A stretch of DNA of 36,934 nt from an uncultured Ruminococcus sp. (GTDB taxonomy: Bacteria; Bacillota; Clostridia; Oscillospirales; Ruminococcaceae): assembly GCA_902786965.1 (NCBI GenBank), contig CADAEJ010000018.1, positions 17,975 to 54,908 of the forward strand, in the 5' to 3' direction. Every line of letters starts with the position of its first letter. The stretch's first letter is position 1. The notes below the pieces were generated by a model, which was not told where the DNA came from, did no database searches, and worked only from the letters and a program-made list of their open reading frames with translations. Below, one piece after another: positions 7,522-31,400 of the stretch. The position numbers and the translations under genes are program-made.

Positions 7522-7745
7522 CTGGGGGAAACCCTTTTGGACGAAGGTCGAGAACGGCAAAGCCGTTCTCTTGGGAGTAACCGTGGTAACGGTTACTCCG
7601 TTATCCCCCGAGAATAACCTTTGGATATTCTCGCAAGCGACCGCAGGTCGCTTTACCCCTATTCCTAAACCTTTTATTGCTTTTTCGCCATCGGGGTAAA
7701 TACCCCGATAACGAAAAAGTAGTTAGAGTTCAAAAAGAGAATCTG
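7522..7745 (+). repeat. Modular hairpin repeat, copy A
   Basis: First of three copies (also near 28546 and 31183), all in the same orientation. Hairpins: H1 7550-7558/7562-7570 (loop AAA); H2 7574-7584/7589-7599 (11 bp, loop GGTA); H3 7609-7619/7623-7633 (11 bp, one mismatch, loop TTT); H4 7636-7642/7646-7652 (loop GCA); H5 7680-7698/7701-7719 (19 bp with two mismatches, loop AA). The right boundary is approximate; the last shared words are GTTAGAG and TTCA-AAAAGAGA near 7722-7741. It lies in the probable 5' leader of mnmE, antisense to the orientation used for naming. No gene is supported in 7501-7975. Confidence 0.88.
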
Positions 7746-7838
7746 AAGAATGATCATTTTCAAACGAATACCGCCAAACACTTAAAAAGAGTTGTGATAT
7801 CCTATAGTCAGCGAGTATCCAGGTTAAAATCACCCAAT

Positions 7839-7867
7839 ATTATACCATATATAATGTGATTTGTAAA
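7839..7867 (-). promoter_or_regulatory. Sigma-A promoter for mnmE-mnmG-rsmG
   Basis: Minus-strand TTTACA (7867-7862) and consensus TATAAT (7844-7839) are spaced 17 bp apart, with TGG forming an extended -10. Transcription would start near 7832, giving a leader of about 330 nt that passes through the whole of repeat copy A before reaching the mnmE start at 7500. Confidence 0.75.
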
Positions 7868-7904
7868 GCAAAGTGCATTTTATTCGGCAAAAGTTCAAAT
7901 ACTG

Positions 7905-7933
7905 TTGAAAATTTCGCGCAAGTGTGCTATACT
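7905..7933 (+). promoter_or_regulatory. Sigma-A promoter for the YfhO-type gene
   Basis: TTGAAA (7905-7910) and TATACT (7928-7933) are spaced 17 bp apart, with TGC giving an extended -10. It diverges from the mnmE promoter, their -35 elements being about 38 bp apart. The gene starts about 43 bp downstream of the -10. Confidence 0.8.
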
Positions 7934-7975
7934 AATTATGTATGTTTAAAATAACGAGAAAAAGGGGTAAGGCTA

Positions 7976-10525
7976 ATGACAGCAGCCATTGAAAAAACGG
8001 GCTTTCTGAAAAATCCGCTGCGAAAGTCAAAGGAAAAATACGGGTGGGTGTTCCTCACAGCGTTTGTGATAATGGCAGTTTCCGTATTGCCGCGTACTAT
8101 CGCAAACGGCGGTATATTCACCTATTACGGTGATTTCAACTCACAGCAGATAATGTTCTACCAGCACGCGCACGACTCGGTGCAGGCGGGCAATCTCGGC
8201 TGGGACTGGGGTACAGACCTTGGTTCGAGCTTTGTAGGTTCGTACTCGTTCTACCTGCTTGGCTCGCCGTTTTTCTGGATAACGACATTATTCCCGTCGT
8301 CATTCGTGCCGTATCTGATACCGTGGCTGCTCGCGCTGAAGACCGCAGTTGCATCGGTTTTCGCGTATGCATATATCAGGCGCTTTGTTGATGACCCTGC
8401 GGCTTGCTTTATCGGCGGACTGCTGTACGGCTGCTCGGGTTTTCAGATATACAATGTATTTTTCAACCACTTCCACGATGCGACAGCTTTCTTCCCGATA
8501 CTGCTGATAGGCTTTGAAAAGCTCGTCGCGGAGAACAAAAAGGGCGCATTTGCTCTTGCAGTGGCGATAAACGCGCTGATAAGCTACTTTTTCTTCATCG
8601 GCGAGTGCGTGTTCCTGGTCATTTACTTCTTCCTGCGCTGCACGGACAAGGAGTTCAAGATAACCGTCAAGAAGTTCTTCTGGCTTATTTTTGAGGCAGT
8701 GCTTGGCGTTGCTATGGGCGCGATACTATTCCTGCCCGCTTGTATGGATATTCTTGGAAACCCGCGCCTTACCGAAAGGCTGTGGGGCTCGGATATGGTG
8801 TTCTACAGCGAGAACGTGCGCATACCGCGTATCTTCCAGGCGTTCTTTATGCTCAACGATATGCCTGCGAGAATAAACATCTTTGCATCCGACCGCGCAA
8901 GGTGGGCATCAATGGCGGGCTACCTGCCGATGTTCTCGATGGCGGGTGTTATCGGCTTTATGCGCACACGCCGCAAGCACTGGCTGACGCGCTCGGTGTA
9001 TGTGTTTATGATAATGGCGTGCATACCGATACTCAACTCGTCATTTATGCTGTTCAACGCATCATATTACTGCCGCTGGTTCTATATGCCGATACTTCTG
9101 ATGTGCCTTATGACCGCAAAGGTCTTTGCCGAGGAGCCCGATGACTTCAAGAAAGGCTTCTGGCTGGTGCTTGGCGTCGATGCGGCAATGCTCGCCGTGG
9201 GACTGCTTCCGAAGGAGGAAAACGGCAGACTGGTGTTCGGCAAGATAGCCCAGTACCCCGAGCTTTATTATATCCAGTTCATTATTACGGTGATCATGAT
9301 ACTGATGCTGGCGCTGCTTGTGTACTTTTTCTCGCATAAGGGCGTTAAAAGCGGTATCGGCTTTCTGCATCTTTCATACAAGCGCACCGCCTGCCTGATG
9401 ACCGCTATCGCCTGCGGAGTGTGTATGTTCACCTGCGTGGTATACGGCTCGATACAGACCGAGTCGCCAAAGGACTACATCGCGCGCGGTGTCAACGGCA
9501 AGGAAAATATGGATATGCAGCTGCTTGAGACGAACAGTCTGCATTATAACCCCGACAACAGTTTCTACCGCATAGATACCTCCCCCGATATCGACAACTG
9601 GTGTATGTTCTGGGGAATGTCGTCGATGCGCTGCTTCCACAGTGTTGTAAATACGTCGATAATGGACTTCTACACGAGCCTGGGACAGACGCGTGACGTT
9701 GCATCGCGTATGGAAACAAACCTGTATCCCCTGCGCTCTTTGCTGTCGGTGAAATACTATTTCGATCAGCACGAGCTTAAAGAGGGCGAGTCCCCCGAAA
9801 GCCCCGGACTGCTCACGGGGTTCAAGTATGTGGGCAAGATGAACGGCTTCAGGGTGTTTGAAAACGAGTATTATATCCCGATGGGATTTGCGTTTGACAA
9901 ATACTGCAAGAAAGATGATCTGGACGGAAAATCCGATGTCAACAAGACGCAGATGCTTATGAAGGCGCTTGTGCTTGACGGTGATACCGCCGTTAAGTAC
10001 AGGGACTACGTCAAGTACAACAGTTTCCTGCCGTCAGAGCTTTCTGCGACCTCGTATATGAAGAACTGCAACGAGCGCCGTGAGGAGTGCTGCGACAGGT
10101 TCAGTTACACCACAAGCGGATTTGACGCGCATATCGACCTGCCTGCAAAAAGGCTGGTGTTCTTCTCCGTTCCGTATGACAAGGGCTGGAAGGCGCAGGT
10201 CAACGGGAACGATGTTGAGATCCTCAAGGTCGATTTCGGGCTTATGGCTATCCCCTGCGAACAGGGCAGCAGCGATATTAAATTCACCTACGAGATGCCG
10301 TTCTTGAAAACGGGTATCCTGCTCACAGTCGGAGGCTTTGCGGTCTGGGGCGGTTATGTGGTTTATTTCAGAAAGAAAGAGAAGATAGTCCCCGATGCCG
10401 ATGCTGACGGCAATGACGATGACGAGGATACCTCGGCAGCTGAGGAAGATACCGATGCAAACGGCGGGGATACGGCAGAAAGTGAGGAAGAAGATGTACT
10501 CCAAGGAAAAGACGATAACCTCTGA
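7976..10525 (+). CDS. YfhO family multi-spanning membrane protein (probable GT-C glycosyltransferase)
   Basis: An 849-residue YfhO-like membrane protein. After a basic cytoplasmic start, helix 1 is at ~24-44, followed by the first extracytoplasmic loop with YYGDFNSQQIMFY, resembling GT-C enzymes in which an acidic residue follows helix 1. About a dozen more helices run to residue ~480. A large soluble extracytoplasmic region (~500-770) ends in the family's FFSVPYDKGWKAQVNG block, then a last helix (~785-803) and an acidic Asp/Glu-rich cytoplasmic tail. B. subtilis YfhO is required for adding sugars to lipoteichoic acid; the role here is inferred from that family. AAAAGGGG lies about 8 nt before the ATG. 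The last 32 nt overlap the Nudix gene. Confidence 0.85.
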   Translation: MTAAIEKTGFLKNPLRKSKEKYGWVFLTAFVIMAVSVLPRTIANGGIFTYYGDFNSQQIMFYQHAHDSVQAGNLGWDWGTDLGSSFVGSYSFYLLGSPFFWITTLFPSSFVPYLIPWLLALKTAVASVFAYAYIRRFVDDPAACFIGGLLYGCSGFQIYNVFFNHFHDATAFFPILLIGFEKLVAENKKGAFALAVAINALISYFFFIGECVFLVIYFFLRCTDKEFKITVKKFFWLIFEAVLGVAMGAILFLPACMDILGNPRLTERLWGSDMVFYSENVRIPRIFQAFFMLNDMPARINIFASDRARWASMAGYLPMFSMAGVIGFMRTRRKHWLTRSVYVFMIMACIPILNSSFMLFNASYYCRWFYMPILLMCLMTAKVFAEEPDDFKKGFWLVLGVDAAMLAVGLLPKEENGRLVFGKIAQYPELYYIQFIITVIMILMLALLVYFFSHKGVKSGIGFLHLSYKRTACLMTAIACGVCMFTCVVYGSIQTESPKDYIARGVNGKENMDMQLLETNSLHYNPDNSFYRIDTSPDIDNWCMFWGMSSMRCFHSVVNTSIMDFYTSLGQTRDVASRMETNLYPLRSLLSVKYYFDQHELKEGESPESPGLLTGFKYVGKMNGFRVFENEYYIPMGFAFDKYCKKDDLDGKSDVNKTQMLMKALVLDGDTAVKYRDYVKYNSFLPSELSATSYMKNCNERREECCDRFSYTTSGFDAHIDLPAKRLVFFSVPYDKGWKAQVNGNDVEILKVDFGLMAIPCEQGSSDIKFTYEMPFLKTGILLTVGGFAVWGGYVVYFRKKEKIVPDADADGNDDDEDTSAAEEDTDANGGDTAESEEEDVLQGKDDNL

Positions 10526-11030
10526 ACAGGTCTATGACGGTATCGTGGTCAAGCTTTTCAGCGACAGCGTTGAGCTTGACAACGGCACAAAGGCTGTGCG
10601 CGAGGTCATTCACCACCCCGGCGGCGTGTGCGTGGCTGCGCTTGATGAAAACGAAAATGTGTTTATGGTCGAGCAGTTCAGATACCCTTTTGCAGAGGTG
10701 CTGACCGAGCTGCCGGCAGGTAAGCTCGAATACGGCGAAGATCCCGAGACCTGCGGCAGACGTGAGCTGCGCGAGGAAGCGGGTGTGGTCGCGGACAAGT
10801 TCGAGTACCTCGGCTGCCTCTACCCTACCGTTGCGTATGATACCGAGAAGATCCATATGTTCCTTGCGACAGGGCTGACTGCTGCTGCGCAGGATCTCGA
10901 TGACGGCGAGTTCCTCGATGTCAGGAAAATGCCGCTGAAGCAGGCATTTGAAATGGCGATGAACGATCAGCTGCACGATGCGAAAACGCAGCTTGCAGTC
11001 ATTAAAGCCTATCTGAAACTGCACGGCTAA
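10494..11030 (+). CDS. Nudix hydrolase, ADP-ribose pyrophosphatase type
   Basis: A 178-residue Nudix enzyme. The full Nudix box G-x5-E-x7-R-E-U-x-E-E-x-G-U is present as GKLEYGEDPETCGRREL followed by REEAGV (residues ~77-99). The EQFRYPFAEVLTELPAG segment just upstream is typical of the NudF/ADP-ribose pyrophosphatase branch, which cleaves ADP-ribose to AMP and ribose 5-phosphate. The ATG at 10494 is chosen because GAGGAAG lies just upstream and the preceding in-frame codons read through the acidic tail of the upstream gene. It overlaps that gene by 32 nt, so translation is probably coupled. A strong terminator follows. Confidence 0.9.
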   Translation: MYSKEKTITSEQVYDGIVVKLFSDSVELDNGTKAVREVIHHPGGVCVAALDENENVFMVEQFRYPFAEVLTELPAGKLEYGEDPETCGRRELREEAGVVADKFEYLGCLYPTVAYDTEKIHMFLATGLTAAAQDLDDGEFLDVRKMPLKQAFEMAMNDQLHDAKTQLAVIKAYLKLHG

Positions 11031-11058
11031 ACGGTACGGTACAAGTAAAAAGTCAAAG

Positions 11059-11087
11059 AAAGCGGAGCGCGATGCTCCGCTTTTTTT
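11059..11087. terminator. Shared bidirectional terminator of the Nudix gene and noc
   Basis: Stem 11059-11068 pairs with 11074-11083 (10 bp, loop GCGAT), followed by a run of seven T on the plus strand and preceded by A-rich sequence. It sits between convergent genes and overlaps the noc stop codon by two bases. Confidence 0.9.
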
Positions 11088-11991
11088 AGTCTGCCTCCGC
11101 AGGTTTTGAGGCTATCCTGATTATGTACTCGATGTAGTCCTCGTGGTCGATGCGCTGCGTGTCGGTGTCCACGCCTGCAAGGCGCATAACATCTACCGCC
11201 TTGTTGACGGTGTTGAAAAACATCTTTACATCGCGCAGAACTGCCGCGCTCTTGCGGATATTCCTGCGGTGTATCTCGTCCTCCTCAAGCTTTTTGACGG
11301 CGCTTTCAAGCTGTGCGACTGTCCAGCCAAGGCTGACCGTCTTTTGCAGCAGCTCCTTGCGCTGCTCGGTATCGGGTACCCGCAGCAGTGCCCTTGCGTG
11401 CCTTTCCGAGAGTGAATGCTCGGTGATGATGCTCTGCTCCTCCTGCGTCAGCCGCAGCAATCGCAGCTTGTTTGCGACCGTTGACTGCGCGTAGCCCAGC
11501 CGCACCGCGACCTCCTCCTGCGTCAGCCCGAACTTTTTCACCAGCTTGTCCAGCGCCATTGCCTCCTCAAAAAAGTTGAGCTGCGCACGCTGGATGTTTT
11601 CGATGAGCGACATCACGGCGCTGCGCTTGGTGTCGGCGTTGATAAGTATGCACGGCACTGTGAGCATACCTGCCATTTTTGCCGCGCGAAGCCGCCTTTC
11701 GCCCGAGATAAGCTCAAACCCGCCATCTACCCTGCGCACCGAAAGCGGCTGGATTATGCCGTCCTGCGAGATGCTTTTTGCAAGGCTGGTCAGCTTCTCG
11801 GCGGAGAAAAACTTGCGCGGCTGCGAGGGATTTGTGCGTATGTCCGCTATGGAGATGTCGAATATCTTGCCGACCTCCCTGACTGCCAGACTCCCCTGCT
11901 GCGCGGATTTTGCGCGGTAATAATCGCTTATCTCGCGGTCGTAGTCATCTTCTGTAAAAACTTTCGCCAATGCTTTTGGTAATATTCCCAT
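11086..11991 (-). CDS. noc: Noc-like nucleoid occlusion / ParB family protein
   Basis: A 301-residue ParB-fold protein. It has the ParB CTP-binding boxes NPSQPRKFF (~59), SGERRLRAAKMAG (~95) and ENIQRAQLNFFEEA (~131), then a helix-turn-helix QEEVAVRLGYAQSTVANKL. The QSTVANKLRLL recognition segment matches Noc of B. subtilis rather than Spo0J. The N-terminus (MGILPKALAKVF) could be the amphipathic helix Noc uses to bind membrane, and the C-terminal ~50 residues form the dimerisation region. Noc prevents FtsZ assembly over the nucleoid. No copy of the B. subtilis Noc site was found by eye in the window. AAAGGAGG lies 8 nt before the ATG. It is divergent from parA. It could be a second ParB with another role. 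Confidence 0.85.
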   Translation of the reverse strand: MGILPKALAKVFTEDDYDREISDYYRAKSAQQGSLAVREVGKIFDISIADIRTNPSQPRKFFSAEKLTSLAKSISQDGIIQPLSVRRVDGGFELISGERRLRAAKMAGMLTVPCILINADTKRSAVMSLIENIQRAQLNFFEEAMALDKLVKKFGLTQEEVAVRLGYAQSTVANKLRLLRLTQEEQSIITEHSLSERHARALLRVPDTEQRKELLQKTVSLGWTVAQLESAVKKLEEDEIHRRNIRKSAAVLRDVKMFFNTVNKAVDVMRLAGVDTDTQRIDHEDYIEYIIRIASKPAEAD

Positions 11992-12014
11992 TTTATACGT
12001 CCTCCTTTTCTACT

Positions 12015-12023
12015 ATTGTAACA
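12015..12023 (-). promoter_or_regulatory. Candidate extended -10 promoter of noc
   Basis: Minus-strand TGT followed by TACAAT lies about 24 bp upstream of the noc ATG. No good -35 is present 17 bp further up, so this rests on the extended -10 alone. Confidence 0.45.
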
Positions 12024-12157
12024 CGGCGCCGAGGGGACGTTCCATAGTTTATCCAAAGAAAAAATCCAAATATTGCGACAAATAGCCCGCATTTACGCTA
12101 TATTTAGTGCTGTATCTTTGCGTTGTGAGCACTCCCCTGTCAAAGCGGCTCGAAAAA

Positions 12158-12173
12158 TGTTTCACGTGAAACA
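12158..12173. promoter_or_regulatory. parS: parS centromere site 1
   Basis: The exact 16-bp palindrome TGTTTCACGTGAAACA, the Spo0J/ParB nucleation site, lies in the noc-parA divergent intergenic region upstream of the parA promoter. Confidence 0.97.
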
Positions 12174-12216
12174 ATATTTTTTGCAAAAAGGGGTTTTCAA
12201 AATCAAAATAATATAG

Positions 12217-12222
12217 TATAAT
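12217..12222 (+). promoter_or_regulatory. Candidate -10 of the parA-parB promoter
   Basis: Consensus TATAAT lies 26 bp before the parA start. A weak -35 (TTTTCA, 12194-12199) sits 17 bp upstream. ParB spreading from the parS site 20-60 bp upstream could influence this promoter. Confidence 0.55.
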
Positions 12223-12247
12223 AGGATTTGACAATAAGGAATGGAGG

Positions 12248-13048
12248 ATGCGCCGTTTGGCGTGGAATAAAATGGGTAAAGTAATTGCGGTTTCTAACCA
12301 AAAAGGCGGTGTCGGCAAGTCAACGACGGTCGTTAATCTTGCGGCTGTTTTCGGGGCAAAGGGCTCAAAGGTTCTTATTATCGACTTTGACCCGCAGGGC
12401 AACACGACAACCAGCTTTGGCATCTCAAAGAAAAGTATACGAAACACCGTCTATGACGTGCTTCTGGGAGATTGTCCCTTGCAGGAGTCGGTCGTAGCAT
12501 CGGCGTTCAGGGGCGTTTCGGTCGTACCGACTACGCAGGATCTTGCGAGCGCGTCGGTACAGCTGCTGACGATGGAAAACCGCGCGATGCGCTTGAAGGA
12601 GTGCCTTAATGACGCGCGCGAGTTTTACGACTACATATTCATCGACTGTCCGCCGACGCTTGATATGCTGACAATAAACGCGCTTGTTGCGGCAAATTCC
12701 GTCATCATACCGATACAGTGTGAGTTTCTCTCGCTCGAGGGGCTTGTCGAGCTGCACCAGACGATAACCCGTGTACGCGAGACCTGGAACAGCGAACTTG
12801 AGGTCGAGGGGATACTTTTCACAATGTGCGTGGCGCGCTACAAGCTGACCGAGCAGATAATGAAAGAGGTCAAAAAGCACTTCCCAAATGAGACCTTTAA
12901 CACCGTTATACCGCGTAACATCGCTATTTCAGAAGCGCCGAGCTTTGGCGAGCCTGTGATCTACTACGAGAAGAAATCAAAGGGCGCAAAGGCATACGAG
13001 GAGCTTGCAAAGGAAATGGTCAAGCGCGCAAAGAAAAAATCAAAGTAA
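12248..13048 (+). CDS. parA: Chromosome partitioning ATPase ParA (Soj)
   Basis: A 266-residue ParA/MinD-type deviant Walker ATPase. It shows the signature lysine motif KGGVGKSTTVVNLA (~19-32), LIIDFDPQGNTT (~46), the Walker B-like IDCPP near 129, and the C-terminal PRNIAISEAPSFG that is diagnostic of Soj/ParA. It forms ATP-dependent dimers on nucleoid DNA and positions ParB-parS complexes; Soj also regulates DnaA in B. subtilis. AAGGA lies 7 nt before the ATG at 12248. Family members usually begin MGK, matching an in-frame ATG at 12272, but that codon has no good ribosome site, so the start is uncertain by eight codons. parB follows after 37 bp containing a second parS. Confidence 0.95.
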   Translation: MRRLAWNKMGKVIAVSNQKGGVGKSTTVVNLAAVFGAKGSKVLIIDFDPQGNTTTSFGISKKSIRNTVYDVLLGDCPLQESVVASAFRGVSVVPTTQDLASASVQLLTMENRAMRLKECLNDAREFYDYIFIDCPPTLDMLTINALVAANSVIIPIQCEFLSLEGLVELHQTITRVRETWNSELEVEGILFTMCVARYKLTEQIMKEVKKHFPNETFNTVIPRNIAISEAPSFGEPVIYYEKKSKGAKAYEELAKEMVKRAKKKSK

Positions 13049-13049
13049 A

Positions 13050-13065
13050 TGTTTCACGTGAAACA
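13050..13065. promoter_or_regulatory. parS: parS centromere site 2
   Basis: A second exact TGTTTCACGTGAAACA lies between the parA stop codon and the parB ribosome binding site. The two perfect sites flank parA. Confidence 0.97.
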
Positions 13066-13085
13066 TTTTTAGAAAGGAATAGAAA

Positions 13086-13976
13086 ATGAGCAAAAAAGCA
13101 CGAATGAACAGGGGACTCGATGCACTGTTCAGCGATAATTTCGCACCCGAAAAGGAAACTGAAAAGGCGGAGGAAGGCGGCATTACCACGGTGAGCATCT
13201 CGCTTGTCGAGCCGAATAAAAACCAGCCGAGAACAAAGTTCGATGATGAAAAGATCGCCGAGCTTACGCAGAGCATAAAGCAAAACGGCATTTTGCAGCC
13301 GATACTCGTCACTCCGCTTGACAACGGCGGATACCGCATAGTTGCGGGCGAAAGGCGCTGGAGGGCGGCTCGCGGCGCGGGGCTGAAGGAGATCCCCGTG
13401 TACATCAGAAAGCTTGACGATAAGCAGGTTATGCAGCTGGCGCTTATCGAAAACGTGCAGCGTCAGGACCTGTCACCGATAGAGGAGGCGCGCGCTTACA
13501 GACAGCTGATGGACGAATACAAAATGACGCAGCAGGAGGTGTCCGAGGCGGTGGGGAAGTCACGCTCGGTCATTGCGAACAGTCTGCGTTTGCTGACGCT
13601 TTGCGAGCCTGTGGTCGAGCTGCTTGAAAAGGGCGAGCTTACCGTTGGTCACGCAAAGATGCTTGCGGGTATCACCGATGCGCAGGAGCAGAAAACCATC
13701 GCACAGCTCGCTGTAAAAAACGGCTTCAATGTACGTCAGCTTGAGGTTTATATTGCGGGGCAGTCGGGCGAAAAGCAGAAAGCTAAAAAGCCCTCGCTGA
13801 AGCAGGAAAACCCGTTTCTGCGAGAGTTTGAGATAAGTGTTAACGACAATTCAAACATCAAGGCAAAGGCAAAGCAGTCGGGCGGGGGAGCAACGACCGT
13901 CAGCCTGACGATAGGCAAAAACGTTGATGTCAACGCGGTATTGAGCAAGCTTGCCGAGCTTTTGAAAAACTACTGA
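13086..13976 (+). CDS. parB: Chromosome partitioning CTPase ParB (Spo0J)
   Basis: A 296-residue ParB. The N-terminal basic RGLDALF motif (~10-16), which stimulates ParA ATPase, is present. The CTP-binding domain has EPNKNQPRTKF, VAGERRWRAARGAG and ENVQRQDLSPIEEARAY. The helix-turn-helix region reads QQEVSEAVGKSRSVIANSL, the Spo0J-type pattern, followed by GHAKMLAG. The C-terminal dimerisation domain begins after a Lys-rich linker. ParB loads at parS, uses CTP to slide as a clamp, and recruits SMC. AGAAAGGAAT lies 6 nt upstream of the ATG. It forms an operon with parA and ends in a terminator at 13987-14020. Confidence 0.97.
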   Translation: MSKKARMNRGLDALFSDNFAPEKETEKAEEGGITTVSISLVEPNKNQPRTKFDDEKIAELTQSIKQNGILQPILVTPLDNGGYRIVAGERRWRAARGAGLKEIPVYIRKLDDKQVMQLALIENVQRQDLSPIEEARAYRQLMDEYKMTQQEVSEAVGKSRSVIANSLRLLTLCEPVVELLEKGELTVGHAKMLAGITDAQEQKTIAQLAVKNGFNVRQLEVYIAGQSGEKQKAKKPSLKQENPFLREFEISVNDNSNIKAKAKQSGGGATTVSLTIGKNVDVNAVLSKLAELLKNY

Positions 13977-13986
13977 TATGACAGAA

Positions 13987-14020
13987 AAAGAGAGTCTGCA
14001 CGGTCATGCAGGCTCTCTTT
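13987..14020. terminator. Bidirectional terminator between parB and alaA
   Basis: A 14-bp stem (13987-14000 with 14007-14020) has a single G-T wobble and a 6-nt loop. A-rich and T-rich flanks suit termination of both convergent genes. Confidence 0.85.
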
Positions 14021-14023
14021 AGT

Positions 14024-15238
14024 TTACTGGTGGTAGGTCCTGAGGAAGTCTTTCATCTCGCCCATCGCGTAGGTCAGCTGTTCGCAGTTTGGCAGGTAAA
14101 CGATGCGGAAGTGGTCGGGCTGCTCCCAATGGAAGCCGCCGCCGTGGGTGAGTAAGATCTTTTTTTCGCGCAGGAAATCAAGCACGAACTGCTCGTCGTC
14201 CTTCAAGCCGAACTTTTGCTTGTCGAGCTTGGGGAAGATGTAAAATGCCGCCTGCGGTCTGACTGCGCTCATGCCGTCAATGCCGTCGATAAGCTTGCAG
14301 ATGCACTCGCGCTGTTCGTAGATACGTCCGCCGGGGAGGAGCATCTCATCGGTCTTGTCAAAGTCCTTCAGGGCGTATTCAATGACATACTGGCTCTGGA
14401 CGTTTGAGCAAAGGCGCATTGACGAGAGCATATTGATACCCTCTATGTAGCCGCGCGCTCTGTTGAGATCGCCGCTGAGCACCATCCAGCCGACACGGAA
14501 GCCTGCGATCTTGTGCGATTTTGAAAGACCGTTGAAGGTCACGCAGAAAAGGTCCGGGGCAAGTGATGCAATCGACGTATGCTTGATGCCGTCCATGCAA
14601 AGCCTGTCGTAGATCTCGTCGGAGAAGATGATAAGCTCATGCTCGCGTGCAAGCTGTGCAATCTGCTCAAGTATCTCCTTCGGGTAGACAGCGCCCGTTG
14701 GGTTGTTCGGATTTATAATGACGATAGCCTTGGTCCTGTCGGTGATCTTTGAGCGCATATCCTCAATATCAGGGTACCAGTTTGAAGATTCATCGCAGAT
14801 ATAGTGTACGGCATTTCCGCCCGAAAGTGTGACCGAGGCGGTCCACAGCGGGTAGTCGGGCGCGGGGACAAGCACCTCGTCGCCGTTGTCAAGAAGTCCC
14901 TGCATAGCCATCGTGATAAGCTCGGAAACTCCGTTGCCGGTGTAGATGTTGTCGATAGACTGCGCAATTACGCCTTTTGAAGCGTGGTAAGCCTTTATCG
15001 CCTCGCGCGCACGGACGATGCCGTGAGAGTCGGAATAGCCCTGCGCATCGTGAAGATGCTCGCTCATTTCCTGCAAAATATAGTCGGGTGCGTTGAAGTC
15101 AAACGGCGCAGGATTGCCTATATTGAGCTTGATTATTTTCTCGCCCTGCGCTATCATGCGGTTTGCCTCGTCCATAACGGGACCTCTGATGTCGTAGCAC
15201 ACGTTGTTCAGCTTGGTGGATTTTGCAAAGGTTCTCAT
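14024..15238 (-). CDS. alaA: AlaA-type alanine/pyruvate aminotransferase
   Basis: A 404-residue class I/II PLP aminotransferase. It is strikingly similar to E. coli AlaA along its length: STKLNNVCYDIRGPVMDEA near the start, LNIGNPAPFDFNAPDYIL, VPAPDYPLWTASVTLSGG, INPNNPTGAVYPKEIL, and the PLP lysine in GLSKSHKIAGFRVGWM (~237-252), then RIYEQRE and HFRIVYLP. AlaA transfers the glutamate amino group to pyruvate to make alanine. The ATG at 15238 is chosen for AGGAAG 8 nt upstream and for matching the family's start; an upstream in-frame start at 15280 would overlap the promoter. It is a single-gene unit with promoter and terminator, oriented against its neighbours. Confidence 0.92.
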   Translation of the reverse strand: MRTFAKSTKLNNVCYDIRGPVMDEANRMIAQGEKIIKLNIGNPAPFDFNAPDYILQEMSEHLHDAQGYSDSHGIVRAREAIKAYHASKGVIAQSIDNIYTGNGVSELITMAMQGLLDNGDEVLVPAPDYPLWTASVTLSGGNAVHYICDESSNWYPDIEDMRSKITDRTKAIVIINPNNPTGAVYPKEILEQIAQLAREHELIIFSDEIYDRLCMDGIKHTSIASLAPDLFCVTFNGLSKSHKIAGFRVGWMVLSGDLNRARGYIEGINMLSSMRLCSNVQSQYVIEYALKDFDKTDEMLLPGGRIYEQRECICKLIDGIDGMSAVRPQAAFYIFPKLDKQKFGLKDDEQFVLDFLREKKILLTHGGGFHWEQPDHFRIVYLPNCEQLTYAMGEMKDFLRTYHQ

Positions 15239-15270
15239 ATTTACACTTCCTAATAAAAATATCCTGATAC

Positions 15271-15299
15271 ATTTTACCACTTTAAATATGATGTGTCAA
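15271..15299 (-). promoter_or_regulatory. Sigma-A promoter of alaA
   Basis: Minus-strand TTGACA (15299-15294) and TAAAAT (15276-15271) are spaced 17 bp apart, with TGG giving an extended -10. It lies about 33 bp upstream of the ATG. Confidence 0.82.
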
Positions 15300-15375
15300 C
15301 AGCATTTTTTCTCAAAAATCTTGGATCTGCGTGAGTTTTTTTGGAAAAAGACTTTATTTTTTTCTTTAAATATAG

Positions 15376-15386: not shown

Positions 15387-15448
15387 TGGTATTCTATACA
15401 TTCAGCAAAACTTATAAACATACATTTTCTGAAACGGAGGAAGATATT

Positions 15449-18953: not shown

Positions 18954-18954
18954 A

Positions 18955-24796: not shown

Positions 24797-24936
24797 TGTA
24801 TACAAGAGATACCCTAAAGGCCTGCGAGGGCATAAACGGATGGGAGATAGCGGCGAGCTTTGCTGTCGGCGGATATTTTGTACTGTCAGATGACGGCGGT
24901 ATCGTGATACTGAAAAAAGTGAATGTTCAAAAATAA
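24793..24936 (+). CDS. Small 47-residue ORF between trmN6-like gene and tsaD
   Basis: A short ORF that I do not recognise. It starts MMYTRDTLKACEGINGWEIA and ends with a basic ILKKVNVQK. Its ATG overlaps the trmN6 stop as ATGA, and it stops 18 nt before tsaD, so it fills the gap exactly. A weak ribosome site (AGGGTGAT) is 9-10 nt upstream. Codon use with GC-rich third positions resembles the neighbours. Strand-like segments (GGYFVLSDDGGIVILKK) suggest a small folded protein. It could be a small conserved protein or a chance coupled ORF. Confidence 0.55.
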   Translation: MMYTRDTLKACEGINGWEIAASFAVGGYFVLSDDGGIVILKKVNVQK

Positions 24937-24954
24937 ATGTTAGGATATGATACA

Positions 24955-25965
24955 ATGAAGATACTTGGAATAGAAAGCTCGTGTGACGAGACTGCCTGTG
25001 CGGTGGTGCAGGACGGCAAAACGGTCCTTTCAAACATCGTTGCCAGCCAGATAGACGAGCATAGGCTGTACGGCGGAGTTGTGCCCGAGATAGCATCGCG
25101 CCGCCACGCCGAAAACATCGGCTGGGTGACAAGAGAGGCGCTTGAAAAGGCAAACTGCACGCTTGACGACATTGATGCGGTGGCGGTCACCTACGCGCCG
25201 GGGCTTATCGGTGCGCTGCTCGTGGGTGTAAGCTACGCAAAGGGGCTTGCACTTGCCGCAAAAAAGCCGCTTGTTCCCGTGCATCACATAGCAGGGCATA
25301 TCGCGGCGAACTATATCTCGCACCCCGACCTGAAACCGCCGTACCTGTGTCTTGTTGTATCGGGCGGACATTCGCACATCGTTGAGGTGCTTGACTACTG
25401 CAAATACCGCGTAGTAGGGCGCACCCGTGATGATGCGGCGGGTGAGTGCTTTGACAAGGTAGCGCGAACGCTCGGCTACGAATACCCCGGCGGAAAGTTC
25501 ATCGACGCGGCGGCGAAAAACGGCAACGCAAAGGCGTTTGACCTGCCGCACCCGAAGGTTCAGGGCAGTGAGTATGATTTCTCGTTCTCAGGGCTGAAAA
25601 CGGCGGTGATAAACCTTGTGCATAACGCACAGCAAAAGGGTATAGAGATAGACCGCGAGGATATGGCGGCATCTTTTCAGCGCACTATCGCGGATATACT
25701 ATGCACAAAGGCTATGCTTGCGGCGGAAAACCTGGGGTATGATACTATTGCGGTCGCAGGCGGCGTTTCGGCGAACTCGGGCGTGCGCGAGAGAATCACG
25801 GCAGAGTGTGAAAAGCGCGGCTATAAGCTGTATCTGCCGGAGCTGAAATACTGCGGCGACAACGGCGCGATGATAGCCTGTCAGGGTCATTACGACTTCC
25901 TTGCGGGCAGACGTGCGGATATGTCGCTCAACGCGGTGGCAACGCTGAGTCTTGAAAATCTTTGA
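24955..25965 (+). CDS. tsaD: tRNA N6-adenosine threonylcarbamoyltransferase TsaD
   Basis: A 336-residue TsaD/Gcp (usual 335-345). The ASKHA-fold ATPase shows LGIESSCDETACAVV (residues 4-18), the iron-binding HHIAGHIAANY (~110-120), LVVSGGHSHIVEV, GECFDKVARTLGY, and VAGGVSANSGVR (~266-277), with the late GDNGAMIACQG. With TsaB and TsaE it transfers threonylcarbamoyl to A37 of ANN-reading tRNAs. The ATG at 24955 has AGGA 10 nt upstream and gives the standard MKILGIE start; an in-frame ATG at 24937 lies too close to the preceding stop. polA follows after 18 bp. Confidence 0.97.
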   Translation: MKILGIESSCDETACAVVQDGKTVLSNIVASQIDEHRLYGGVVPEIASRRHAENIGWVTREALEKANCTLDDIDAVAVTYAPGLIGALLVGVSYAKGLALAAKKPLVPVHHIAGHIAANYISHPDLKPPYLCLVVSGGHSHIVEVLDYCKYRVVGRTRDDAAGECFDKVARTLGYEYPGGKFIDAAAKNGNAKAFDLPHPKVQGSEYDFSFSGLKTAVINLVHNAQQKGIEIDREDMAASFQRTIADILCTKAMLAAENLGYDTIAVAGGVSANSGVRERITAECEKRGYKLYLPELKYCGDNGAMIACQGHYDFLAGRRADMSLNAVATLSLENL

Positions 25966-25983
25966 AATCGGGAGCACTTTTGT

Positions 25984-28542
25984 ATGAAACTACTTGCAAT
26001 AGACGGAAACAGCATAATGAACAGAGCCTTTTACGGCATAAGGGCGCTTGCGAACTCAAAGGGGCAGTTCACGAATGCCATCACGGGCTTTATGAACATC
26101 TACCTCAAAGAGCTTGCGACTGTTGAGCCCGACTGCGCGGCGGTGGCGTTTGACCTCAAAGCGCCGACCTTTCGCCACAAGGCGAATGCCGATTACAAAG
26201 CCAACCGCAAGGGAATGCCTGCCGAGCTTGCCCAGCAGATGCCCGTTATAAAGGAGCTTCTGACAGACCTCGGCGTGAAGATAATCGAATTTGAGGGCTA
26301 TGAGGCTGATGATATTCTCGGTACGCTTTCAAAGGCTTGCGCTGACAGCGGAAACGAGTGCATTATCCTCACGGGCGACCGCGACAGCTTTCAGCTGGTT
26401 TCCGACAGCGTGACTGTTCGCCTTGCGGGAAACAAGGAAACAAAGGTCTACACACCGCAGAGGATAATGGACGAATACGGAGTTTCACCACGGCAGATGA
26501 TAGAGGTCAAGGCGCTTATGGGCGACACCTCGGACAACATCAAGGGCGTAAAGGGTATAGGCGAAAAGACGGCGCTTGACCTTATACAGCGCACAGGCAG
26601 TGTTGACGGTCTGTACGAGCAGCTGCCCGAGCTCAAGCTCACCCCCTCTGTAAGAGCAAAGCTTGAGGGCGGTCACCAGGATGCGCTTGACAGCAGATTT
26701 TTGGCGGAGATATTCCTTGAGGTGCCGATAGATACCGATATTGAAAGCTACAGGCTGACGGGCGGCGACAGGGAAAAAACGCGCGAACTGCTCGCAGGGC
26801 TTGAAATGTTCAAGCTGATGGAAAGGCTTGATGTGCAGGGCGCAGCTGCGGACAGCGGCGAGGTGGAGGCTGAAAAAAAGGTCACGCTCGCAGATCTGCC
26901 GAAGATCACCGAAAAGGCGCTTGAAAGTGCGGATATAAAGGCTTTTGAGCAGGCTGGCAAAGTCGGGTGCGAGCTTAAAGGCGGCACGCTTAAAGTCATC
27001 TGCGGTGATGTTGTTTACACGACCGATGACAAGGCGCTTGTGCTGGAATTTCTGCGCACGGACTGCACAAAGTATGCGCTGGAGGGCAAGAGCCTGCATC
27101 TGTTTGCATTCGGCGGCGGTGAAAGGGTTAAAAACCTTGCGTTCTGCTGTGACCTTGCAGGGTATCTGCTCAACTCGCAGTCAAGCGACTACACGGTTGA
27201 AAACCTGTGCCTTGCGTACAAGGTCGCGTACCGCAGCGACTGCGGAGAAAATGCCGATATCGCAAGTCTTCTTCCGCTGTGCGAGAACCTTGAAAAACAG
27301 CTCGCAGATACGGAAATGACGCAGCTTTACCGCGACATCGAGCTTCCGCTTTGCGAGGTGCTTGCGTCAATGGAATACACAGGCGTAAAGGCAGACGCTG
27401 ACGGCATCAGGGCGTTCGGCGAAAGTCTCAAAGGCAAGATAGCCGAGCTTAAAGAGCAGATATTCGCATACGCAGGCGAGGAGTTCAACATCGCCTCGAC
27501 CAAACAGCTCGGTGTGATACTTTTTGAAAAGCTGGGGCTTCCCGTCGGGAAAAAGACCAAGACAAAAACGGGTTATTCGACAGGCGCGGAGGTGCTGGAG
27601 GAGCTTGAAAACAAGCACCCGATAATACCGCTGATACTTGAATACCGCACGCTGACAAAGCTGGATTCGACCTACGTTGAGGGTCTGCTCAAACAGATAG
27701 GGCAGGACGGGCGCGTTCACTCGGTGTTCAAGCAGACGGAGACGAGAACGGGACGCATATCCTCGACCGAGCCGAATATGCAGAATATCCCCGTGCGCAA
27801 GGAGATAGGGCGCAATATGCGCAAGTTCTTTGTGGCAAAGCAGGGGTATGTGCTTGTTGATGCGGACTACTCGCAGATAGAGCTGCGCGTGCTTTCGTGC
27901 GTATGCGGTGACGAGAATATGCAGGAGGCGTTTTTAAGCGGCAGGGACATTCACCGCTCGACTGCGGCGCAGGTTTTCGACCTGCCCGAAGATTTCGTCA
28001 GCGACGAGATGCGCCGTGCGGCAAAGGCTGTCAACTTCGGCATTATCTACGGCATAGGTCCCTTCTCGCTGTCAAAGGATATCGGGGTATCGGTCGCCGA
28101 GGCAAAGCAGTATATCAGCAATTACCTCGCCAACTATCCGAAGGTCTCACAGTTTATGGACAAAACAGTTGAGGACGGCATAAGAAACGGCTATGTCACG
28201 ACTATTTTCGGCAGGCGCAGATACATTCCCGAGCTTAACGCATCAAACAAGAATGTTCAGGCTTTCGGCAGGAGGGCGGCTATGAATGCGCCTATTCAGG
28301 GTGCGGCGGCTGATATAATCAAGCTGGCGATGGTAAAGGTATATGCACGCATCGCTCGGGAGGATATTGATGCGCGCCTGATATTGCAGGTACACGACGA
28401 GCTTATCCTTGAGGTCGCCGAAAAGGACAGAGAAAGGGCTGAAAAGCTTCTGAAAGAGGAAATGGAGGGCGCAGTAAGGCTTGCCGTTCCGTTTACGGCT
28501 GATGTTCACAGCGGACACAGCTGGTATGATGCAAAGGGTTGA
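25984..28542 (+). CDS. polA: DNA polymerase I
   Basis: An 852-residue family A polymerase. The 5'-3' exonuclease domain begins LLAIDGNSIMNRAFYGIRAL (3-22) with EGYEADDILGTLSK and LTGDRDSFQLV, plus the helix-hairpin-helix GVKGIGEKTALDLI. The middle 3'-5' exonuclease domain (~310-450) lacks the usual acidic triad, as in other Firmicutes polymerases. The polymerase domain has TGRISSTEPNMQNIPVR, DADYSQIELRVLS (catalytic Asp), RRAAKAVNFGIIYGIG (O helix) and VHDELILEV. It fills repair gaps and removes Okazaki primers; with no visible proofreading residues it should be exonuclease-deficient in the 3'-5' direction. GGGAGCA is upstream of the ATG. Repeat copy B follows the stop immediately. Confidence 0.97.
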   Translation: MKLLAIDGNSIMNRAFYGIRALANSKGQFTNAITGFMNIYLKELATVEPDCAAVAFDLKAPTFRHKANADYKANRKGMPAELAQQMPVIKELLTDLGVKIIEFEGYEADDILGTLSKACADSGNECIILTGDRDSFQLVSDSVTVRLAGNKETKVYTPQRIMDEYGVSPRQMIEVKALMGDTSDNIKGVKGIGEKTALDLIQRTGSVDGLYEQLPELKLTPSVRAKLEGGHQDALDSRFLAEIFLEVPIDTDIESYRLTGGDREKTRELLAGLEMFKLMERLDVQGAAADSGEVEAEKKVTLADLPKITEKALESADIKAFEQAGKVGCELKGGTLKVICGDVVYTTDDKALVLEFLRTDCTKYALEGKSLHLFAFGGGERVKNLAFCCDLAGYLLNSQSSDYTVENLCLAYKVAYRSDCGENADIASLLPLCENLEKQLADTEMTQLYRDIELPLCEVLASMEYTGVKADADGIRAFGESLKGKIAELKEQIFAYAGEEFNIASTKQLGVILFEKLGLPVGKKTKTKTGYSTGAEVLEELENKHPIIPLILEYRTLTKLDSTYVEGLLKQIGQDGRVHSVFKQTETRTGRISSTEPNMQNIPVRKEIGRNMRKFFVAKQGYVLVDADYSQIELRVLSCVCGDENMQEAFLSGRDIHRSTAAQVFDLPEDFVSDEMRRAAKAVNFGIIYGIGPFSLSKDIGVSVAEAKQYISNYLANYPKVSQFMDKTVEDGIRNGYVTTIFGRRRYIPELNASNKNVQAFGRRAAMNAPIQGAAADIIKLAMVKVYARIAREDIDARLILQVHDELILEVAEKDRERAEKLLKEEMEGAVRLAVPFTADVHSGHSWYDAKG

Positions 28543-28545
28543 CCG

Positions 28546-28730
28546 CTGGGGGAAACCCTTTTGGACGAAGGTCGAGAACGGCAAAGCCGTTCTCTTGGGA
28601 GTAACCGTGGTAACGGTTACTCCGTTATCCCCCCGAGAATATCTTTCAGCAACGGGAGGCAAAGCTCCCGTCACTGAAAAGTGTTAGAGAGTTCAGAAAA
28701 AGAGTTTGAGCGAAAAACGCTCCCAAGAGA
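28546..28730 (+). repeat. Modular hairpin repeat, copy B
   Basis: Second copy of the 7522 repeat, beginning four bases after polA. H1 28574-28582/28586-28594 (loop AAA) and H2 28598-28608/28613-28623 (11 bp, loop GGTA) are shared with copy A. H3 and H4 are absent; instead H5' pairs 28652-28658 with 28665-28671, reinforced by outer pairs 28644-28649 with 28674-28679. A further short hairpin (28709-28713/28719-28723) lies near the end. The rest of the gap to cheR (28731-28866) contains nothing I recognise, and no clear promoter. Confidence 0.88.
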
Positions 28731-28866
28731 ATAACCACAATGACAACTCTCTGTATCAAAACATCTATTACGGCTATGTGGGGATGCGGCAAAAGTTCAG
28801 CTGCAAATCAGTATTTGTTAGTACGAAAGAGAAACCATACATTACACCACGGAAAAGGGTGATAAA

Positions 28867-29685
28867 ATGTTAACGATAGAGAACGAAGATTTTATAAAGC
28901 TTGTTGATTTTATCAAAGAGCGCTACGGCATAAATCTTGAACAGCGCAAGGTGCTTGTTGAGAGCAGGCTTTCCAACCATGTTCTTGACTACGGCTTTGA
29001 CAATTTCGCTGATTACCTCAACCTTGTCTACAATGATTCGACACAGCGCGAGGTCGCAAATATGGTAAACCGCCTCACCACCAATCACACCTACTTTATG
29101 CGTGAAACTGCGCATTTCCAGCATATGATGGAGGTCTTTCTGCCGATGGCGGAGAAAAACATCAAGGATAAAACGCTGTGCATATGGAGTGCAGGCTGTT
29201 CGTTCGGCAACGAGCCGTACAATATCGCGATGTGCCTTGACGAGTATTTCGGTATGCGCAGACATCAGTGGGATCTGAAGATACTTGCGACAGATATCTC
29301 GTTCAATGCGCTCAAAAGCGCGTCAAACGGTATCTATCCCGCATCGGCGCTTGAAAATATCCCTGACAAGTGGCGCGAGAAATACTTCTGCCGCGCAGAT
29401 CTTGGTGATTACAGGGTAGTGGACGATATAAGAAACAATGTGGTCTTCAAGTATCACAATCTTATGGAGGACATTTCATTCAAGCGCAAATTCCACCTTA
29501 TCTTCTGCCGAAACGTTATGATATATTTCAACGAGGAAACAAAGTCAAAGCTTTGCAGAAAGTTCTACAACGCTACCGAGCTTGGCGGCTATCTGTACAT
29601 AGGGCACGCAGAGAGCGCTCCGCAGGATATGCCTTACCGAAAGATAGCGACAGCTGTTTATAAAAAGGACGGTGATCGGGGATGA
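28867..29685 (+). CDS. cheR: Chemotaxis protein methyltransferase CheR
   Basis: A 272-residue CheR of normal length. The N-terminal helical domain (residues ~1-70) ends in NRLTTNHTYFMRE, the typical NxTxFFR-like block. The SAM site is IWSAGCSFGNEPYNIAM (~98-114; usually STGEEPY), followed by LATDIS and HLIFCRNVMIYF, and GGYLYIGHAES. It methylates glutamates on chemoreceptors. AAGGGTGAT lies before the ATG. Its stop overlaps cheB (ATGA). No cheA, cheY or receptor gene is in the window, so this operon must serve proteins encoded elsewhere or have another sensory role. Confidence 0.92.
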   Translation: MLTIENEDFIKLVDFIKERYGINLEQRKVLVESRLSNHVLDYGFDNFADYLNLVYNDSTQREVANMVNRLTTNHTYFMRETAHFQHMMEVFLPMAEKNIKDKTLCIWSAGCSFGNEPYNIAMCLDEYFGMRRHQWDLKILATDISFNALKSASNGIYPASALENIPDKWREKYFCRADLGDYRVVDDIRNNVVFKYHNLMEDISFKRKFHLIFCRNVMIYFNEETKSKLCRKFYNATELGGYLYIGHAESAPQDMPYRKIATAVYKKDGDRG

Positions 29686-30707
29686 TAAGACAAAGCGGAA
29701 AGATACTTGTTATTACCGATGACAGAGCTTTCCTTGCACTGCTGAAAAAGACGGTCGAAAGTCAGACACAGCAGGGCGTAAAGGTCGTGCTGGAGAGCTG
29801 TTCGTTCGAGCTTGGCGCGAAGATGATAGGCACCTGTCTGCCGAATGTTATTATCGTTGACGGTGACAGGTGGGACAAGGATATAACGGCACAGTACATC
29901 AGAAAGCTTATGCCAAGGTATTCAAGACCGCTGCTCGTATGCACCTGCCATCACAACTCAAATTACGGCTTTATGAGCGCGGGCGCTATGGACGTTGTCA
30001 GCAAGCAGGCAGGCGACAGCGAGCTGTTCGGCAAAAGGCTCTGTCAGAGCCTCAACAGGCTGTTCGCCAAGGAGCAGGAGGACAGGCAGACGCATATGAA
30101 GATACTGCCCGGGCGGCAGGGGAATATTATCGCTATCGGAGGCTCAACGGGCAGCACGCAGGCTTTGCCTGTGGTGCTTGAAAAGCTCGGCAGCGGCGAC
30201 ACCCCTCCGATAGTTGCGGTTTTGCATATGCCCGAGACTTACACTAAAATCTATGCCGAGCAGCTTGACAAGTCCACACGCTTCAATGTGGTGGAGGCGA
30301 AAAGCGGGCTGTACCTTAAAAACAATATGGTCGTTATCGCAAAGGGCGGCGAGCATCTGCGCGTTTTCCACGATAAAGACGGCTACTTTGTCACATCCGA
30401 AGCAGGCGTGAGAGTTTCGGGGCACTGCCCGTCGGTCAACGTGCTGTTTGACTCGGTGGCATACTGCGCCAAGTCAAAGGCAGTCGGCGTGATACTCACA
30501 GGCATGGGCTCTGACGGTGCGGCAGGTATGCTGAACATGAAAAAAATGGGCTGCTACACTATCGGTCAGGACGAGGCGAGCAGCGTTGTCTACGGAATGC
30601 CGCGTGCTGCTTTTGAAAACGGCAGCGTAAGGCGGCAGATGAGCCTTGAAAACATAGCGGGCGAGATAATGCTCGATCTGAAACTTATCAATAAGGAGGA
30701 AAAGTGA
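29682..30707 (+). CDS. cheB: Chemotaxis response regulator / protein-glutamate methylesterase CheB
   Basis: A 341-residue CheB. The receiver domain keeps the acidic pair (DD13-14), the phosphoacceptor Asp60 in VIIVDGD, and Lys108 in VVSKQ, though the sequence around them is divergent. The linker (~125-145) leads into the methylesterase with catalytic Ser in AIGGSTGSTQAL, His in LHMPETYT, and Asp in TGMGSDGAAGM. CheB removes methyl groups from or deamidates chemoreceptors when phosphorylated by CheA. Its ATG overlaps the cheR stop, and cheW begins within a base or two of its end with GGAGG at the junction. Confidence 0.9.
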   Translation: MIRQSGKILVITDDRAFLALLKKTVESQTQQGVKVVLESCSFELGAKMIGTCLPNVIIVDGDRWDKDITAQYIRKLMPRYSRPLLVCTCHHNSNYGFMSAGAMDVVSKQAGDSELFGKRLCQSLNRLFAKEQEDRQTHMKILPGRQGNIIAIGGSTGSTQALPVVLEKLGSGDTPPIVAVLHMPETYTKIYAEQLDKSTRFNVVEAKSGLYLKNNMVVIAKGGEHLRVFHDKDGYFVTSEAGVRVSGHCPSVNVLFDSVAYCAKSKAVGVILTGMGSDGAAGMLNMKKMGCYTIGQDEASSVVYGMPRAAFENGSVRRQMSLENIAGEIMLDLKLINKEEK

Positions 30708-30708
30708 T

Positions 30709-31167
30709 ATGGAGGCAGAGAAGTATCTTGTGTTTTCTGTTGACGGACACATTTTTTCCGTGAACTTTACTTTCGTCAAGCAGATAGTGCCTGCGTCAGC
30801 ACCCGAGAGGATACCCGATTTTCCCGACTATGTACTCGGTACGGTCAGGTACGAAAACAGGTATATCCCCGTGATTGACCTGACACGGCGATTTCAGTAT
30901 GACCTTGGCGGCGTGCGTGAAAGAGACTGCTTCATCGTGACTAACAACCTTGAAAAGCAGGTGGCACTGCTGGTCAATGAGATCTACGGCTTTTCAGAGG
31001 TCATGCCCGAGCAGATACAGCCCGCAGTTGCGCTCAACGAGCAGGCGTGCGCGCGCTTTCTTATCGGTGAGTTTACCGACGAGCAGGGAAGAGAATGCCG
31101 CATCATCGACCCCGATAAAGTCATCAGGCTCGGTGACGAGAGGATCTTTGAACAGGGCGGGGAATAA
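30709..31167 (+). CDS. cheW: Chemotaxis coupling protein CheW
   Basis: A 152-residue CheW. It shows FSVDGHIFSVNFTFVKQIV (residues 9-27), PDYVLGTVRYENRYIPVIDLTRRF (~41-64) with the R-x2-x-x-P-V-I-DL core, and VNEIYGFSEVMPEQIQP. CheW links receptors to the CheA kinase; the two SH3-like half-barrels are complete. AAGGAGG is 9-10 nt upstream of the ATG. It is last in the cheR-cheB-cheW operon. Repeat copy C begins 15 bp after its stop. Confidence 0.9.
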   Translation: MEAEKYLVFSVDGHIFSVNFTFVKQIVPASAPERIPDFPDYVLGTVRYENRYIPVIDLTRRFQYDLGGVRERDCFIVTNNLEKQVALLVNEIYGFSEVMPEQIQPAVALNEQACARFLIGEFTDEQGRECRIIDPDKVIRLGDERIFEQGGE

Positions 31168-31182
31168 GTTGTTTTTTTAATG

Positions 31183-31400
31183 TTGGGGGAAACCCTTTTG
31201 GACGAAGGTCGAGAACGGCTTTGCCGTTCTCTTGGGAGTAACCGTGGTAACGGTTACTCCGTTATCCCCCCGAGAATATCCGTTGGATATTCTCGCAAGC
31301 GACCGCAGGTCGCTATACCCCCGAGGCAAGCTCCCGTCACTGAAAAGTGTTAGAGAGTTCAGAAAAGAGAGAATTTGAGAAAAAATCATTCCCAAGAGAT
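31183..31400 (+). repeat. Modular hairpin repeat, copy C
   Basis: Third copy of the 7522 repeat, in direct orientation to copy B. H1 31211-31219/31223-31231 has loop TTT, the complement of AAA in copies A and B. H2 31235-31245/31250-31260 is unchanged. H3 31271-31281/31285-31295 is a perfect 11-bp stem with loop GTT. H4 31298-31304/31308-31314 has loop GCA. Then only the right half of the H5' module remains (CAAGCTCCCGTCACTGAAAA, 31327-31346). The shared tail GTTAGAGAGTTCAGAAAA follows. No gene is supported in 31168-31506. Confidence 0.88.

Follow-up and report, generated by a model that had tools for sequence, protein, structure and literature searches.

The window analysed here, a stretch of 36,934 nt from the draft genome of an uncultured Ruminococcus sp. 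(2.6 Mb, 125 contigs; G000:C18:17975-54908), carries three copies of a repeat built of short hairpins. G000 denotes this genome, Gnnn other genomes and Lnnn individual loci; copies A, B and C are given in window coordinates. Copy A is flanked by mnmE (minus strand; its ATG is at 7500) and by a gene of the YfhO family, copy B by polA and cheR, and copy C by cheW and a convergent gene for a LuxR-type response regulator. The initial annotation had reported copies near 7522, 28546 and 31183, all of which are present, and had read them as an interspersed, structured family with shuffled modules. This description is borne out by the copies gathered across this and related genomes, by compensated stems and by comparisons of orthologous sites. 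The composite, MITE-like family is real and is a variant of a kind of element already known; both the sites it occupies and what its copies contain vary from species to species. Below, S is the strand as read in that annotation and R the opposite strand.

Four parts make up the basic element of about 165 nt: the hairpin P1, a linker, the hairpin P2 at the centre, and a tail that holds P3, a degenerate hairpin. The simple P1 has 15 bp (CTGGGGGAAACCCTTTTGGAGAAGGGTTnTCCCCCAG), the linker reads ACCCCCTTCCTAAACCTTTTAATG and the tail ends near CCCACAG. Among the copies examined, P1 is simple in 93 and LONG in 36, the LONG forms having two hairpins, H2 and H3, inside P1, followed by two more, H4 and H5. 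The LONG P1 alignment comprises 32 of these 36 forms (four under 105 nt were excluded); copies B and C, which have no linker, are not among them. The tail, read on the other strand, can be aligned to the P1 half with a score of 61 (which includes the P2 base, complementary in any case), versus a maximum of 35 in 1000 shuffles. The element is therefore an inverted repeat, though an imperfect one, whose halves each bear a side hairpin and whose centre is a palindrome. Terminal inverted repeats are thus present but imperfect, and many copies are additionally framed by the outer ends AAATCnGnATTT..AAATTCTGATTT.

All three window copies depart from this basic plan: they are long or recombinant, with additional hairpins inside P1 and next to it, and B and C are junction forms. 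The five hairpins originally numbered H1 to H5 are taken here as H2, H3, H4, H5 and P2, respectively, where H2 is GAGAACGG..CCGTTCTC, H3 GGAGTAACC..GGTTACTCC, H4 CGAGAATA..TATTCTCG and H5 AGCGACC..GGTCGCT. The different module sets described for the three copies were recovered: A has all five, B is without H4 and H5, and C has H4 and H5 with only the right part of P2. Exact sharing of the first two hairpins holds except for the first one in C, whose loop is TTT as against AAA in A and B. A further stem, GGGGG.../...CCCCC, which encloses H2 and H3, had been overlooked. In copy B the left H4 arm joins P2 directly, and at this junction the G016 orthologue has a simple P1 and an intact linker. The minus-strand folds of A, B and C have z-scores of -9.8, -6.9 and -6.2, none of 200 shuffles being as good in any of the three.

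The exact 19-nt start of the repeat occurs 39 times in the 2.6 Mb genome and the pattern read backwards not at all, so that further copies, on which the initial annotation had made its reading depend, are plentiful. BLAST of the three copies against the genome gave 51, 59 and 48 matches, which are pieces rather than copies. The exact start was found in eight of the 29 genomes of the genus (G000 included) and in none of 32 genomes from the same family and order but outside the genus. With a covariance model of P1 and the linker, the family was detected in 21 of the 29 genus genomes (G000 included) at E 0.01, although one of them, G006, has just one match, with an E of 0.008. This model detects the LONG window copies poorly, and its counts per genome are inflated and are not copy numbers, since the palindromic P1 matches both strands. 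The named carriers are Ruminococcus sp. FC2018 (G007) and a set of uncultured Clostridiales and Ruminococcus metagenome-assembled genomes (MAGs), comprising RUG060, RUG460, RUG13226, RUG13311 and two SRR bins; the RUG series is presumably of rumen origin. In G000, 22 of the 39 exact starts lie less than 150 nt from a contig end. Short-read assembly therefore probably fails at the repeat, which would make the copy numbers given here underestimates.

A stop codon of a same-strand gene precedes P1 in 47 of 62 classifiable copies, at a distance of 1-493 nt (median 25). This count started from 71 copies with a linker and enough flank, nine unclassifiable ones being dropped and orthologous copies retained; copies near contig ends or without a linker, such as B and C, had been left out beforehand. 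Open reading frame (ORF) calling was simple for this purpose and misplaced the neighbour of copy A. The copies are mostly outside genes, 6 of the 71 lying inside a called ORF. At L010, near 2789 on the minus strand (G000:C39:2787), a copy begins about nine codons before the gene end seen in G016, and the last codons of that gene, as read by eye, are replaced by element sequence.

The stems stay paired even as their sequence changes, in some cases entirely, with compensation in both P1 and P2; uncompensated stems, the outcome that the initial annotation had named as counting against a selected structure, did not emerge. Among 35 distinct simple P1 sequences, 99.0% of alignment cells pair, and 7 of the 15 pairs carry double changes (27 cells, with only three one-sided standard pairs); none of 500 shuffles reached this, and slid partners pair in only 35-69%. 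For P2, 61 distinct arm pairs were obtained from 94 hairpins above the score limit. Arms of the same hairpin are 94.2% complementary, versus 42.8% between arms of different variants. The folding energies of 25 extracted elements on the S strand have a mean z of -8.0. Loops of H2 occur in both orientations, AAA in 13 and TTT in 11 of 30. Arm homogenisation and spacer inversion are described as products of template switching in excerpts from PMC8604942 and PMC8794818.

Sites A, B and C were each compared in eight relatives. Site A measures 337 nt in G000 versus 35 in G016 and 31 in G008, both of which are empty; the stretch absent from these empty sites spans 7501-7837 of the window. Elsewhere, site A holds a different element in G010 and a tail-like remnant in G020, and no P1 was seen in G009, G007, G012 and G004, the right flanks of the last three being poorly aligned. 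Site B is empty in G004, G007 and G012. It holds the same element and flanks with a simple P1 in G016, another P2 in G010, another LONG form in G009 and other arrangements in G008 and G020. Site C contains only a terminator in G007, G008 and G012, another element in opposite orientation beyond the terminator in G016 and G010, and one element on either side of the terminator in G020; one flank is absent in G009 and G004. Four further sites of G000 were compared. At C4:86627, other hairpins were found in G010 and remnants in G016 and G008, one flank being absent in G020. At C39:20842, there is no P1 element in G016, G010 and G008 and another LONG form in G020. C39:2787 has other hairpins in G016 and G020 and other sequence in G008, and C39:9731 has a LONG form in G008. 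Orthologous sites thus vary among relatives in presence, orientation and hairpin content. Hairpins are replaced between matching flanks at window site B versus G016, at L017 of G000 versus L139 of G016 and, in the portion of 34 listed pairs that was compared, at L063 of G016 versus L067 of G020 and at L053 of G000 versus L102 of G016. In this last pair the elements are alike in nearly everything except P1.

The strand opposite to the one originally read appears to fold more completely, a conclusion with moderate support from comparisons of the two strands. The 61 P2 arm pairs contain 1066 Watson-Crick pairs, 46 A-C, 23 G-T and 5 other mismatches on S, and by distinct context 34 A-C and 8 G-T. 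Such an A-C excess on S favours R, since A-C on S is G-U on R. The alignment consensus of 36 simple elements (from 78 extracted; 42 were excluded because of their length or as atypical) gives 44 pairs and -50.0 on R, with six standing U-G/G-U pairs in the lower stem, as against 30 pairs and -42.7 on S. None of 60 column shuffles reached this difference (shuffle mean -1.2, lowest -6.2). Cells of the lower stem are paired in 97.4% on R as against 57.8% on S. On R, transitions away from Watson-Crick pairs led to G-U in 21 cells of the lower stem and to A-C in 2, and in 45 and 12 cells, respectively, when the lower stem and the P2 stem are taken together. Unpaired columns are without such bias, with C>T in 32 cells of 11 C columns and G>A in 29 cells of 7 G columns, and, in the other direction, A>G in 33 cells of 16 columns and T>C in 52 cells of 22 columns. 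We take these results as moderate support for selection on R in single-stranded form, as RNA or as DNA.

Taken together, we consider it rather probable that the repeats are a non-autonomous composite family of small interspersed elements of rumen Ruminococcus, resembling miniature inverted-repeat transposable elements (MITEs) and BOX elements, mobilised in trans and having their hairpins exchanged and rewritten by template switching. Copies would be spread by a putative transposase acting in trans; template switching at hairpins may homogenise the arms and invert the loops; and recombination through the conserved spacers could exchange hairpins between dispersed copies, which fits the whole-hairpin differences between matching flanks. 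Selection may also maintain the fold that one strand adopts when single-stranded, whether it serves as RNA or as a transposition substrate. The folded elements are probably mobile as short DNA elements. The idea of a mobile element, already part of the initial annotation, is supported by the empty orthologous sites, but target duplications could not be read there and the loci examined yielded no autonomous partner.

Several results weigh against this interpretation. The flanks of the empty sites are too diverged for target duplications to be read. The loci examined yielded no autonomous element whose ends match, and no framed transposase is evident from their frame lengths; the genome-wide search covered the Y1 family only. 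At C4:86627, several species have the element either in place or in decayed form, a pattern that long-standing vertical inheritance would explain as readily as a recent insertion. H3 loops are hardly inverted (1 of 37), and no inverted P1 or H4 loops were seen in the alignments. One measure of P1 compensation points the other way, further pair types numbering 8 against a shuffle mean of 9.0. The strand signal also has its weak points. The lower-stem pairs compared between R and S were themselves predicted on R, and covariation of the lower stem alone is weak (97.4% versus a shuffle mean of 96.5%, reached by 3 of 500). Single sequences have the lower energy on R in 71 of 78 cases (mean difference R minus S -8.5), but shuffles give a mean of -5.0 (sd 5.0), so the strand difference is partly one of composition. 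The cells counted in the strand tests, moreover, share ancestry.

The position behind genes raises the question of whether the repeat is a 3′ untranslated region element, transcribed on S by read-through from the upstream gene and ending or protecting its mRNA. The 47 of 62 copies with P1 just after a same-strand stop codon (median 25 nt) are what such an element would give, but stretches downstream of genes may simply be more permissive to insertions, an argument made for pneumococcal repeats in an excerpt from PMC3049150. We consider this explanation quite unlikely, given that the lower stem is paired on S in only 57.8% of cells, that the wobble changes favour R, that sites are empty in some relatives, with site C having a separate terminator where the element is absent, and that P1 is followed on S by ACCCCCTTCC and no T run, as read from the alignments (no terminator scan was run). 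A second alternative is an RNA gene read from R and dispersed as a family of structured non-coding RNAs, for which the six standing U-G/G-U pairs and the 21 lower-stem transitions to G-U against 2 to A-C, with unbiased unpaired columns, could be cited. Yet Rfam 15 gave no match in the window at gathering score, and for L094, L017 and L025 only two tRNAs at or above it, weak microRNA-type matches overlapping the element. No promoter was seen by eye, no dedicated promoter test having been made, and copies vary in presence and module content, so this explanation is unlikely.

Perfect pairing also requires no selection at all if template switching alone keeps the arms complementary. Such neutral palindromes would account for the 27 double-changed P1 cells with only three one-sided standard pairs and for the inverted H2 loops, by a mechanism that excerpts from PMC8794818 and PMC8604942 describe; the excess of R-strand wobble in the lower stem and P2, unmatched in unpaired columns, makes them improbable as the whole explanation. 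The least likely candidate, in our view very unlikely, is a set of repetitive extragenic palindromic (REP) sequences or bacterial interspersed mosaic elements (BIMEs) mobilised by a REP-associated tyrosine transposase (RAYT) of the Y1 family. The repeats are short, palindromic, extragenic and behind genes, and Y1 matches occur in five other carriers (G007, G008, G009, G012 and G020). Against this, PF01797 gave no match in G000, G010 and G016, all of them carriers of many copies (genome completeness 91%, 70% and 98%). The REP type with a RAYT, a possibility raised in the initial annotation, is thus not supported for this genome, and a RAYT mobiliser is rejected for G000 only.

Among the closest known systems is BOX of Streptococcus pneumoniae (boxA-boxB-boxC), which excerpts from PMC3049150 describe as a composite small interspersed repeat with variable hairpin content at orthologous sites, over-represented behind genes and thought to be mobile in trans. 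The likeness is one of plan, no BOX sequence having been compared, and the host is another. BOX, according to the same excerpts, varies in the number of boxB units and has been reported with target duplications, whereas the Ruminococcus family swaps whole hairpins of unrelated sequence and no target duplications were read in it. With bacterial MITEs such as RUP and Correia, as portrayed in those excerpts, it shares short length, inverted ends, a strong fold and many copies, but here no insertion sequence with matching ends was found and hairpins lie within both inverted halves. REP/BIME systems with RAYT, in an excerpt from PMC3733652, are likewise extragenic palindromes, mosaic and mostly downstream of genes; here the genome itself has no Y1 match, and the unit is roughly 165-280 nt with several distinct stems. 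Among the titles listed by topic searches of the literature, none names this repeat. String searches with three repeat sequences returned nothing, and those with the TGCCTCCGGCGGC core, judged by the titles listed, only other subjects.

Relatives of one half of the element were found much further afield. Contigs of Halodesulfovibrio spirochaetisodalis and two IMG/VR records contain a P1 and linker half-element in which 55 of 57 bases are identical, the unpaired base being matched to the corresponding Ruminococcus variant. We take Halodesulfovibrio to belong to a different phylum from Ruminococcus. The Ruminococcus P1 and linker model scores 87 bits in six of these loci. The half-elements adjoin TGCCTCCGGCGGC (in L082 a one-base variant of it), and two of the six strong loci, L158 and L159, have weaker inverted P1-like partners about 180 nt away. 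The TGCCTCCGGCGGC-bounded hairpin repeats of Halodesulfovibrio and some IMG/VR contigs are thus alike in P1 and linker but differ in outer ends and centre. A phylum-common repeat does not explain this sharing, because the linker pattern, at its sensitivity, was found in only 2 of 398 genomes of a phylum sample, namely G000 and one with a single site with two mismatches. A 60-nt P1 and linker query had no match in phage and plasmid collections, one TGCCTCCGGCGGC-bounded element had none in plasmids, and the Ruminococcus-type gapped pattern had none in viral contigs. Viral contigs were also scanned for the TGCCTCCGGCGGC frame, with a gapped pattern that allowed other combinations at the outer position; all 27 of the distinct matches listed pair T-A or C-G there. 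How a near-identical 57-nt half-element reached two phyla is a question these findings raise. That the repeats belong to an undescribed cross-phylum class, with inverted ends bearing side hairpins, hairpins continually rewritten and a strand-specific fold selected as RNA or as substrate of a mobilising enzyme, is possible, though doubtful.

Whether compensatory selection or template switching causes perfect pairing in long hairpins despite sequence change is debated. This family offers natural cases by the dozen, already aligned, among them loops in both orientations and an orthologous site differing almost only in one hairpin; its strand-specific wobble signal could separate selection from mutation. 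Hairpin modules that differ between relatives at one chromosomal site document, in nature, the making and swapping of DNA hairpins.

Table 1. Parts of the three repeat copies in the window
Copy	Part	Position	Strand
A	P1 left arm with small CCTT..AAGG hairpin (LONG form)	7522..7547	+
A	Hairpin H2, loop AAA	7549..7570	+
A	Hairpin H3	7574..7599	+
A	Right arm closing P1, GTTATCCCCC	7600..7609	+
A	Hairpin H4, one mismatch	7609..7633	+
A	Hairpin H5	7636..7652	+
A	Linker TATTCCTAAACCTTTTATTG, one arm of the P2 lower stem	7660..7679	+
A	Central hairpin P2	7680..7719	+
A	Tail GTTAGAGTTCAAAAAGAG, other arm of the P2 lower stem; right boundary uncertain	7722..7739	+
B	LONG P1 with H2 (28573-28594) and H3 (28598-28623); polA stop codon 3 nt upstream	28546..28633	+
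B	Recombinant junction, H4 left arm fused to P2 (CGAGAATATC/TTTCAG)	28634..28649	+
B	Central hairpin P2	28644..28679	+
B	Tail with degenerate hairpin P3	28683..28742	+
C	LONG P1 with H2 (31210-31231, loop TTT) and H3 (31235-31260); cheW stop codon 15 nt upstream	31183..31270	+
C	Hairpin H4	31271..31295	+
C	Hairpin H5	31298..31314	+
C	Truncated P2, right part only; without linker and left arm	31323..31349	+
C	Tail with P3	31350..31411	+

Some variants of the element deserve mention. The near-fixed P1 stem contains a single unpaired base (alignment A2, column 29). Of the 35 sequences, 14 have A at this position, 10 have C, 7 have G and 1 has T, while 3 lack the base; in the Halodesulfovibrio copies it is A or C. 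In L016, L081, L096, L098 and L141, the P2 linker is replaced after P1 by another 3′ tail, mostly TATGATACCCTTAGGG-like and followed by AACCGAATAGGACnAA. Ruminococcus sp. FC2018 has four 368-nt composite frames (G007 C3, C4, C8 and C16), each linking the element to a second, 148-nt repeat with AAATCAGAATTT-type ends; three of them lie wholly or partly in loci L094, L150 and L156. Five IMG/VR contigs (L179, L181, L218, L221 and L223) contain short elements of the form TGCCTCCGGCGGC-hairpin-GACCCC..GGGGTC-hairpin-GCCGCCGGAGGCA; matches that face each other lie a short distance apart, and the hairpins vary.

Between copies A and B, the window also contains two parS-like sites, 12155-12178 and 13047-13070 (TGTTTCACGTGAAACA, which we take to be the parS motif), beside one ParA-family gene and two ParB-family genes (11086-11991, minus, and 13086-13976, plus). 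Because these sites adjoin ParA/ParB-family genes, the window probably lies near the replication origin.

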